Below are positions 10,102 through 60,667 of a DNA stretch of 64,000 nt, piece by piece (position 1 is the first letter of the stretch; every line of letters begins with the position of its first letter). The stretch spans positions 21,416-85,415 of the forward strand of contig JAFGLY010000125.1 in assembly GCA_016927815.1 (NCBI GenBank). Reading direction: 5' to 3'. A program made the translations under genes and the position numbers. Under the pieces are notes generated by a model, which was given only the letters and a program-made list of their open reading frames with translations, made no database searches and was not told the DNA's origin. Source of the DNA: Deltaproteobacteria bacterium. Its GTDB lineage: Bacteria > Myxococcota_A > UBA796 > JAFGLY01.

Positions 10102-10184
10102 GGGGGCGTGGCGGAACGGCAGACGCGCCCGACTCAAAATCGGGTGAGCATACGCTCTTGAGGGTTCGATTCCCTCCGCCCCCA
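10102..10184 (+). tRNA. tRNA-Leu (anticodon CAA)
   Basis: GGGGGCG...CGCCCCC acceptor stem, anticodon arm CCCGA-CTCAAAA-TCGGG, long variable arm GAGCATACGCTC, T arm GAGGG-TTCGATT-CCCTC. Confidence 0.95.
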
Positions 10185-58354: not shown

Positions 58355-58384
58355 CCACCCGCCGCAGAGCCACCTGCTGTGCAT

Positions 58385-58860
58385 CCCCCCGCGACCTCGA
58401 GATCCAGCGCCTCAGGAAGGCACTGGAGACGGCCCTCGCCCAACTCGCCGCGACCCGCGCGGAACTCGTGGCACTCCCTTGAGCAGGCGCGGGCGTCCGA
58501 CGCGCGCATCGGCGAACGGACGGCCCAGGTCGCGCGTCTCACCGAGGTGGTCGCCTCGGGGAACGACCGGATCGCCGAGCTGGCAACGGACGCGAGACGA
58601 AAGCGCGCCACCTCCGAAGGGCACCTGGAACTGCAGAGGATCCCGCTGTCCATCTCGTTCTTCGTCCCCCAGGTCGAGGCGGCGGCCCAGCTGCTCGACG
58701 TGGTGGACTCCGAGCACTGGAAGCAGCTCCTCGCCGGTCCCTGGATGCCAAGCGACGGCACCTCGCTCGAGGGGATCGTCCCCGACCTGCCCGTCACGCA
58801 CGACGGCCACCTCGAGGTGTTCCTCCGCGACGAGACCTGTGGGGGGGTGCCACGCGGTCA
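58385..58860 (+). pseudogene. Decayed IS66-family transposase (TnpC-like) remnant with frameshift and internal deletion
   Basis: Frame 1 RDLEIQRLRKALETALAQLAATRAELVALP*, frame 2 LEQARASDARIGERTAQVARLTEVVASGNDRIAELATDARRKRATSE...IPLSISFFVPQVEAAAQLLDVVDSEHWKQLLAGPWMPSDGTSLEGIVPDLPVTHDGHLEVFLRDE; resembles the IS66 coiled-coil N-terminus joined to the 'HW..LLAG.WM.TDGTGLKVLVP.LP..H.GYLEVFR.DE' catalytic segment. Confidence 0.65.
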
Positions 58861-58873
58861 TGGGGACTCCAGC

Positions 58874-59021
58874 GGAAGAAACTCGGGAGGTAAGGACTTA
58901 CCCTCGGTGTTGTTTCCTCTCTGGAGGTAGTAACTCGTTGGGTAGAGCCTTACCCTTGGAGTTACTGCCTATTTAGGGGAAGTAATTGTATAGGTAACTG
59001 GTTACCCCCGGACTTGCTTCC
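58874..59021. repeat. Tandem array of three dyad-symmetric 44-bp units on an exact 52-bp period
   Basis: Units at 58874-58917, 58926-58969, 58978-59021, each 8-mer/N7/14-mer/N7/8-mer with GGTA....TTACC centre: GGTAAGGACTTACC, GGTAGAGCCTTACC, GGTAACTGGTTACC. Confidence 0.8.
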
Positions 59022-59284
59022 GCGACGCTCCACTCCGGGACGCGCCGCTCTCTCCGCCAGCGCCTCCAGGGGTGAGGCCATCCAACTCTGTCGTGCTTGA
59101 CCTTCGCCCTGACCGACGCTACGGCCCCCGGATGCTTCCTGTCGTCCGTGGGAGACATCGCGCTGGAGGCCCGCCGGCGACATCGGTACGCCGACCGTGT
59201 TCTACGACCCGACATCGGGTCGTCCGGCTAGGGCCTCGAGAGGGTCGCTCCACGTCTCGCTTTGGGAGTTGAAGGGGATCCGCC

Positions 59285-60667
59285 ATGAAGCTCTCCGCCA
59301 GCACCAGGATCCACGATCTTCTCGAGGAACACGCGTTCCTCGAGGACTTCCTGGCCGGCTACGACGCGAAGTTCGAGATGCTGAGGAGCCGCATGGCCCG
59401 GGCGACCCTCGGCCGTCTCGCCACCCTGAAGGTCGCCGCAGGCATCGCGAGCATCGACCTCAACGATCTCCTCGAGGCCGTCGCCGCGGAGATCGAGCGC
59501 CGCACCGGCTCGCGTCCCGATCTGGAGCGCTCGGCCGAGGGCGAGCGCCAGACGCGGGAGCGGCGGATCCGGGTGCTGGAGGAGATCATCCACGACCTGC
59601 ACGACGGAGGCGATCTCGAACGGGCCCGATCGCGCTTCGCCGAGGCGATCGAGGACGTGGAGGCGAGCGAGATCGCCGCCATGGAGGAGGAGCTCATCCG
59701 CGGCGGCATGCCCGTCTCCGAGGTGCAGCGGCTGTGCGACGTGCACGTGAGCGCATTCCGGCAGGCCCTCGACGAGCACCAGGCGGTGGAGGTGCCCCCC
59801 GGTCATCCCGTGCACACCTACGTCGCAGAGAACCGAATCCTCACCCGGCTCGCGAACGCGCTCGGCAGCCTGGCGCGCGAGGCGGGTCGCGGCAGGGACG
59901 CACCGGAGCGCTTCGCCTCCATCGAGGAGGTTCTCCGCGATCTCGACGGGATCGAGAGCCACTACCAGAGAAAGGAGAACCAGCTCTTCCCGTTGCTCGA
60001 GCGGCACGGCGTGACCGGCCCCCCCCAGGTGATGTGGGGCGTCCACGACCAGATCCGCGCGGCGCTCGCGTCCGTCCGCGAGGCGGTTGCGCAGCGGGAC
60101 GCCGAGTCCTTCTCGAGCCAGGCGCCTGCACTCGCCCGGGACATCGTCGAGATGGTCTACAAGGAGGAGAAGGTCCTGTTCCCGATGTCGCTCGAGACGC
60201 TCTCGGAAGAGGAATGGGCCGAGGTTCGGCGCGGTGAGGACGCATTGGGCTACGGGCTCGCCCAACCTGCGGCGTCCTGGCCGTCCGCACGGCCGGAGGC
60301 CATGGAGGCCGTCCCCGCGATGTCACCCGAGGGCCTCCTGGCCCTCCGGACCGGCGCACTCTCCCTCGACCAGGTGAATCTCGTCCTCACCCACCTGCCC
60401 GTGGACCTCTCGTTCGTGGACGAGACGGACACCGTCCGCTTCTACTCCGAGGGCCCGGACAGGATCTTCCCGCGCAGCCCGGCGGTGATCGGGCGCAAGG
60501 TGCAGGCCTGCCACCCGCCGAAGAGCGTACACGTGGTGCAGAGCATCCTCGACGCGGTCCGCGACGAGGCCGGCGCCTATCGAGGCTGCCTCGAGGTCAG
60601 CCAGGACGTGACGCCCATCCGTGCCCTCACCGGAGAGCAGAGGTTGCTGGACCGGAGGATGGAATGA
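59285..60667 (+). CDS. DUF438 / hemerythrin-like / PAS-like multidomain protein
   Basis: N-terminal TRIHDLLEEHAFLEDFLAGYDAKFEMLRSRM (ScdA/DUF1858-like), HPVHTYVAENRILTRL...ESHYQRKENQLFPLLERHGVTGPPQVMWGVHDQIR hemerythrin/DUF438, then VDETDTVRFYSEGPDRIFPRSPAVIGRKVQACHPPKSV PAS-like. Confidence 0.85.
   Translation: MKLSASTRIHDLLEEHAFLEDFLAGYDAKFEMLRSRMARATLGRLATLKVAAGIASIDLNDLLEAVAAEIERRTGSRPDLERSAEGERQTRERRIRVLEEIIHDLHDGGDLERARSRFAEAIEDVEASEIAAMEEELIRGGMPVSEVQRLCDVHVSAFRQALDEHQAVEVPPGHPVHTYVAENRILTRLANALGSLAREAGRGRDAPERFASIEEVLRDLDGIESHYQRKENQLFPLLERHGVTGPPQVMWGVHDQIRAALASVREAVAQRDAESFSSQAPALARDIVEMVYKEEKVLFPMSLETLSEEEWAEVRRGEDALGYGLAQPAASWPSARPEAMEAVPAMSPEGLLALRTGALSLDQVNLVLTHLPVDLSFVDETDTVRFYSEGPDRIFPRSPAVIGRKVQACHPPKSVHVVQSILDAVRDEAGAYRGCLEVSQDVTPIRALTGEQRLLDRRME

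Follow-up and report, generated by a model that had tools for sequence, protein, structure and literature searches.

REPtrons are formed by RAYT/TnpA_REP genes that are flanked by REP palindromes (PMC3116915; PMC2817692; PMC6006769). A second arrangement, the TIRtron with its TIRYT protein, has also been described (PMC3733652), and TIRYTs belong mostly to TnpA_Y1 subclass 2.1, with HTH_23, HTH_28 or Bac_DnaA_C tails (PMC6006769). It is still debated by what means domesticated Y1 transposases locate their palindromes and increase their number; the accepted picture is the recognition of a single-stranded hairpin.

Here we analysed a stretch of 64,000 nucleotides of a deltaproteobacterial genome (the window), which contains a block of three tandem dyads that is very probably the orphan array of an HUH-transposase-like element. 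The complete element would combine ~48-bp dyads, arranged in tandem, with a gene for an HUH/Y1 relative that has an HTH-like C-terminus. Its resemblance to a REPtron lies in the HUH and single-tyrosine protein with a TnpA_REP-like fold, in the gene being bordered by its own palindromic repeats, which also occur dispersed without the gene, and in its few copies, whose paralogs have little identity to each other. In contrast with REPtrons, the family shows the tyrosine motif Y-x-x-x-Q-x-x-[HK]-H instead of the RAYT motif Y-x-x-x-N-P that characterizes class 2 (PMC6006769), the nine units scored in this genome lack a conserved GT[AG]G foot, the repeats are tandem ~48-bp dyads spaced by helical turns where REPs are 20-40 bp long and come as inverted pairs, and the protein has a C-terminal HTH-like domain. 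The element may resemble TIRtrons in its Y1 protein, the tail of which is weakly HTH-like, in the flanking inverted repeats that are not typical REPs, and in the presence of repeats elsewhere in the genome, since some TIRs are clustered away from the gene as the orphan arrays are here; however, subclass 2.1 TIRYTs have an NP motif, which the family lacks, and a GGGGWSAS-type TIR consensus. Superfamily and general logic are alike in the RAYT/REP and TIRYT/TIR systems and in this one, whereas the tyrosine motif, the repeat architecture and probably the mode of recognition differ. Helically spaced arrays at genes were not found in PMC3733652 or PMC6006769, whose main texts do not contain the word "helical", and the open-access literature searched yielded no account of Y1 genes accompanied by helically phased arrays.

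The array in the window and its copies in the same genome

An earlier note, made from the sequence, had described three 44-bp dyads within an AT-enriched island. The three units, to which no strand is assigned, were confirmed at 58874..58917, 58926..58969 and 58978..59021, with the sequences as quoted and with a 52-bp spacing that is exact both times. The enrichment was also borne out, as the block has 49% GC and the window 71%. Relative to the direction of the lost gene (see below), unit 1 is gene-proximal and unit 3 gene-distal. The palindromic matches of units 1, 2 and 3 are 15, 16 and 14 of 22, unit 2 being the most symmetric. Since the window also holds background dyad sites (17 at 15/22, 3 at 16 and 2 at 17), single dyads scored one by one are not extraordinary; the units are identical to each other at 28-35 of 52 positions. 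What makes the array significant is its tandem order, together with the fact that the genome contains the entire array twice more. A short imperfect palindrome at 59022..59048 (GCGGCGC-N13-GCGTCGC on the minus strand) forms the outer border of the array.

The repeat search in the genome recovered these two full-length copies, on contigs C166 and C35. The 171-bp block is 87% identical to the C166 copy and 82% identical to the C35 copy (E = 4e-55 and 5e-43). The whole conserved block, read on the minus strand, spans 58819..59049 (87% identity with C166, 81-82% with C35), and similarity among the copies ends at its limits. All three copies retain the three-dyad layout and the outer palindrome, beyond which similarity ceases. 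Under a strict dyad pattern, the same genome gave zero matches, the pattern being too strict.

In C35, the array is located ~20 bp upstream of an intact ORF of 277 aa (L003:1668-2501), whose product reads MTAWHHLTLASEERAPLF...DDHVHVV...YVLTQTAHHG... The corresponding ORF of C166 is internally deleted, and consists of 32 codons and 31 bp of the 3' end followed by unrelated sequence. In the window, only the 5' remnant of this HUH/Y1-like gene is left (58819..58861, minus strand, ~43 bp with small indels, ATG at 58861), so the window block is an array that lost its gene. This remnant of an HUH-transposase-like gene is what abuts the array; the IS66 remnant reported previously in this place was not detected, as Pfam was blank in the adjoining ORFs scanned, at 58379-58927 on the plus strand and at 58412-58861 on the minus strand. 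The stretch 58379-58927, earlier called IS66, is degenerate and coding-looking, with no Pfam match at E<=0.01. The other full-length homologs encoded by the window genome share no more than 50% identity with the query, and no near-identical copies were found among them.

At the junctions, we observed that the outer palindrome follows immediately on a TAG stop codon, that of rlmB in C166 and that of iorB in C35. Both junctions read GTAG followed by the GC-rich hairpin, and the window copy has AGAG at this place. This junction might be an insertion target or an element end.

A divergent family of Y1/HUH transposase relatives

Homologs of the protein are present in 25 of the 94 relatives searched, and the named relatives that carry them are Deltaproteobacteria/Myxococcota MAGs. 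A scan of the contig collection with the single protein gave no relatives, and the 24-member alignment was too diverse for scanning; the scan with an 8-member alignment identified 43 loci. Some of the public MAG records that carry this deltaproteobacterial HUH family are titled "Bifidobacterium breve" or "Klebsiella pneumoniae" (L100, L102, L107, L119 and L123); they correspond to contigs placed in the order of the window, and the titles look wrong.

Family proteins are ~255-295 aa long. The 24-member alignment revealed an invariant D-x-H-x-H (D46, H48, H50), Y99 and H107, that is, a tyrosine ~50 residues after the HUH motif and then a histidine, which is the layout of an HUH/Y1 enzyme. The presence of an HUH motif with a single downstream catalytic tyrosine corresponds to what defines the Y1/HUH transposase superfamily (TnpA_Y1). 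Around the tyrosine, the consensus is Y-x-L-x-Q-x-x-H-H-G. Pfam Y1_Tnp matched 8 of the 24 members weakly (best E 4e-4), three family members exceeded the curated cut-off, and the C35 protein itself had no significant match in Pfam or NCBIfam; a PDB profile search pointed to Y1 transposases only at E values of 0.05-1. The Y1 identity was visible only from the family alignment and the fold. The AlphaFold (AF2) model of the L099 protein has a pLDDT of 95, and with this predicted structure the best PDB match in Foldseek was 4er8, the E. coli TnpA_REP in complex with a REP hairpin (probability 1.00, E 1.3e-3), a remote match, followed by ISDra2 and IS608 TnpA (probability 1.00). The ~150 C-terminal residues form an extra helical region, to which HTH_23 is weakly matched in 9 of the 24 members. 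We conclude that the protein is a divergent relative of the Y1/HUH transposases, and that its C-terminus is weakly HTH-like.

The family may fall outside the 12 published TnpA_Y1 subclasses. Subclass 1.2 has, by description, a Y---Q--HH motif that matches the tyrosine motif of the family; in contrast, its members are of ~148 aa, cyanobacterial or from Bacteroidetes, and without repeats (PMC6006769). Class 3 (YV..EQ) has ~178 aa and atypical structures (PMC6006769), and is also shorter than the family. With IS200/IS605 elements (IS608, ISDra2) the family shares the catalytic fold, but it has no near-identical copies, it has a large C-terminal extension, and in place of one subterminal hairpin it has dyads repeated in tandem.

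Tandem arrays beside the homologous genes

The flanks of 89 genes from deltaproteobacterial MAGs, each encoding 200 aa or more and located with the family HMM in the fetched regions, were inspected for strong tandem arrays (TRF score >=130, period 30-110). A strong array lies within 300 bp of 52 of these genes; for the remaining 37, some of which are at contig ends, none was found within this distance. Arrays are concentrated next to the genes, with 60 in 51 kb of proximal flank, compared with 13 over the 146 kb that lie 500-1500 bp away. In contrast, only 4 of the 27 ordinary Y1_Tnp genes of the same genomes have a repeat (Fisher p 6e-5 versus the family), and the periods of these repeats (34/39, 58, 81 and 99) belong to none of the classes of the ladder described below.

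Among the 51 genes with on-ladder arrays, the array is only upstream in 31, only downstream in 14 and on both sides in six. Upstream arrays are often less than 100 bp from the start codon, and those found only downstream mostly begin 1-13 bp past the stop codon. Arrays beginning a few bases past the stop codon of the HUH gene were seen in L027, L032, L046, L093, L095 and others; the first downstream dyad may overlap with the 3' coding end or may act on the end of transcription. The sequences of the arrays vary between homologs, with some sharing inside subclades, and protein identity correlates with array similarity (Mantel r 0.26, 0/2000 permutations). Of 52 consensus units, 26 are palindromic at p<=0.01 versus shuffles, and the others are not. 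At one locus (L015, equal to L099), the gene has a 51-bp array upstream, and downstream of it there is a 98-bp tandem repeat of 4.7 copies (L015:2500-2965) that is off the ladder and inside which the contig ends.

A ladder of array periods with steps close to the helical repeat of DNA

The periods of the arrays cluster at 51-52, 62-64, 73, 83-84, 94-95 and 104 bp. A scan of moduli from 5 to 20 was carried out on a single array for each gene, after removal of the most populated class (51-53 bp). For the 27 periods longer than 54 bp, the best modulus was 10.5 bp (R 0.73), a value that none of 200,000 uniform random sets reached, although the genes and arrays are related and not independent, so that the p-values are optimistic. 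The classes fall on a line of 51.5 + 10.66n with a residual sd of 0.68 bp, for periods that had been pre-assigned to near-ladder classes. At 10.5 bp per turn, 51.5 bp corresponds to 4.9 turns, slightly under five. Arrays that show no similarity in sequence nevertheless fall on this ladder, and while the dyad span is steady at ~44-50 bp, the linker absorbs the change in period. The spacing histogram of 10-mer arms gave R 0.41 at 10.5 and a weak maximum near 11; it is noisier than the TRF periods because the words also match inner half-sites, and the TRF periods, on which the ladder rests, were preferred.

Dispersed arrays and internal-deletion derivatives

In the window genome (G000), the array of a second homolog (L007) recurs at contigs C184, C162 and C202. 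At C162 (L156), what is left of the 3' end of the L007 gene adjoins the orphan array, which represents a second internal-deletion derivative. In another genome, G007, seven further contigs carry the array of L015, in many cases at their ends, where the assembly breaks; on one of them, C132 (L152:2433-2550), the orphan array is followed by a short piece of the start of the gene. The C132 and C162 copies parallel those of the window and C166, as recurrent, MITE-like derivatives produced by internal deletion. In G063 (family of L032), single dyads of ~47 bp and not whole arrays are scattered over several contigs, which suggests that the unit that spreads is the dyad rather than the array. In G057 we obtained only a few short partial matches with a query made up mostly of the spacer between gene and array and of part of one unit.

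Cognate palindromes dispersed outside the gene locus, as in RAYT/TnpA_REP systems, are thus found in G000, G007 and G063, and the dispersal of arrays and dyads is REP-like and MITE-like behaviour. The dispersed and deleted copies point to mobility of the element. Plasmid and phage collections gave no match, and no replicon context was found in them. Among the possibilities raised in the earlier note, the REP/MITE-like repeat is the one that is well supported, by the genome copies, the adjacent HUH relative, the internal-deletion derivatives and the dispersed orphan dyads in relatives.

Possible modes of dyad recognition

To our reading, the block is reasonably likely to be what remains, in orphan and MITE-like form, of an HUH element akin to REPtrons and TIRtrons, with repeats that protein probably binds in helical register. 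A dimer of the protein would bind each dyad in double-stranded DNA, probably through the C-terminal domain; the near-whole number of helical turns between dyads would place the dimers on one face of the DNA, giving a cooperative nucleoprotein complex. Within this complex the HUH/tyrosine domain could be placed so as to nick one strand, either at a dyad or at the element's border, and nicking would spread or rearrange the array; the complex may also regulate the gene. Unrelated arrays that share only the dyad length and the 10.5-bp ladder point to duplex recognition in helical register, a mechanism that we consider equally likely to hold or to fail. More tentative still, and somewhat on the doubtful side, is the general proposal that a deltaproteobacterial HUH-HTH family outside the published TnpA_Y1 subclasses reads helically phased duplex dyads of ~48 bp and forms a one-faced complex. 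If true, an iteron-like docking on duplex DNA would be coupled to HUH nicking, with REP-like dyads and MITE-like derivatives spreading genome-wide, and this would explain a class of unannotated intergenic palindrome arrays in uncultured Deltaproteobacteria/Myxococcota, the window array included. The likeness to plasmid iterons and phased arrays, in which direct repeats spaced by whole turns are bound by the product of a neighbouring gene, is an analogy only, given that here the dyads are long, the period is 5-10 turns instead of ~2, and a replicon context was not found.

The main rival of duplex binding is that each dyad acts, like the REP of E. coli TnpA_REP, as a lagging-strand ssDNA hairpin cut by the HUH domain, with the even spacing arising merely from recent tandem duplication of units. 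It agrees with the fold being closest to 4er8, solved with a REP hairpin, with the nested hairpin form of the units, and with the single dyads dispersed in G063. When folded as ssDNA, unit 2 clearly beats shuffled sequences (z -4.7 on the plus strand), but units 1 and 3 do no better than shuffles. Compensatory changes were also considered, since the earlier note had proposed selection on symmetry rather than on sequence. The copies of this genome did not support the proposal: in the three G000 copies, with nine dyads in all, the outer arms and the centre are conserved largely in their sequence (GG-A--AA and GGGTA), and compensatory changes (two pairs, three cells) are not above shuffles. With 25 arrays from relatives pooled, 21 compensatory double changes were counted versus 11.1 expected (0/500 shuffles), a modest excess, but single-sided changes (162) dominate. 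This excess leaves room for a single-strand hairpin role. The GT[AG]G foot, unconserved among the nine units, also argues against a REP-like hairpin, and tandem duplication explains the spacing within one array but not the placement of unrelated arrays on one 10.5-bp ladder. We therefore regard this alternative as rather unlikely; the conservation and folding of the units together with the helical ladder favour duplex recognition, and a hairpin step during nicking is possible.

Other readings assign the dyads a role in transcription, or none. As autoregulatory operators, they would be bound by the HUH-HTH protein or by a separate repressor to control its gene, their dispersal being passive. 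The HTH-like C-terminus and the 31 of 51 genes with phased arrays upstream only, often within 100 bp, are in line with this idea; nevertheless, the 14 genes with arrays downstream only and the six with both, as well as the orphan arrays and single dyads far from any family gene, make it quite improbable. The array for a dimeric regulator suggested in the earlier note is compatible with our results insofar as the likely binder would be the HUH-HTH protein of the element itself, but not as regards a tie to the hemerythrin/YgbA genes. The hemerythrin gene does begin only 264 bp downstream of the block, at 59285, and an operator array, a riboswitch-like RNA or a terminator triplet for these downstream genes could be imagined; however, the C166 and C35 copies adjoin rlmB and iorB, respectively, with no hemerythrin gene at either, which leaves the array untied to hemerythrin/YgbA, and the lost cognate gene faced the opposite way. 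The Rfam scan of the window gave nothing at the block, its sole match over the gathering score being a tRNA at 10102-10184, and with unit 2 alone folding clearly above shuffles, the structured RNA or terminator triplet put forward earlier found no support. A function for hemerythrin/YgbA is thus very improbable. Synteny was uninformative on this point, as the hemerythrin gene had no full-length ortholog in 38 relatives, only partial weak matches. A chance or decaying, functionless local tandem duplication would fit the degenerate window copy, with its divergent units and its missing gene, but is hardly credible when two further copies share the three-unit layout and when arrays of unrelated sequence and like layout occur at 52 of 89 homologs; as a description of the window copy alone, as it is today, this reading may nevertheless be right.
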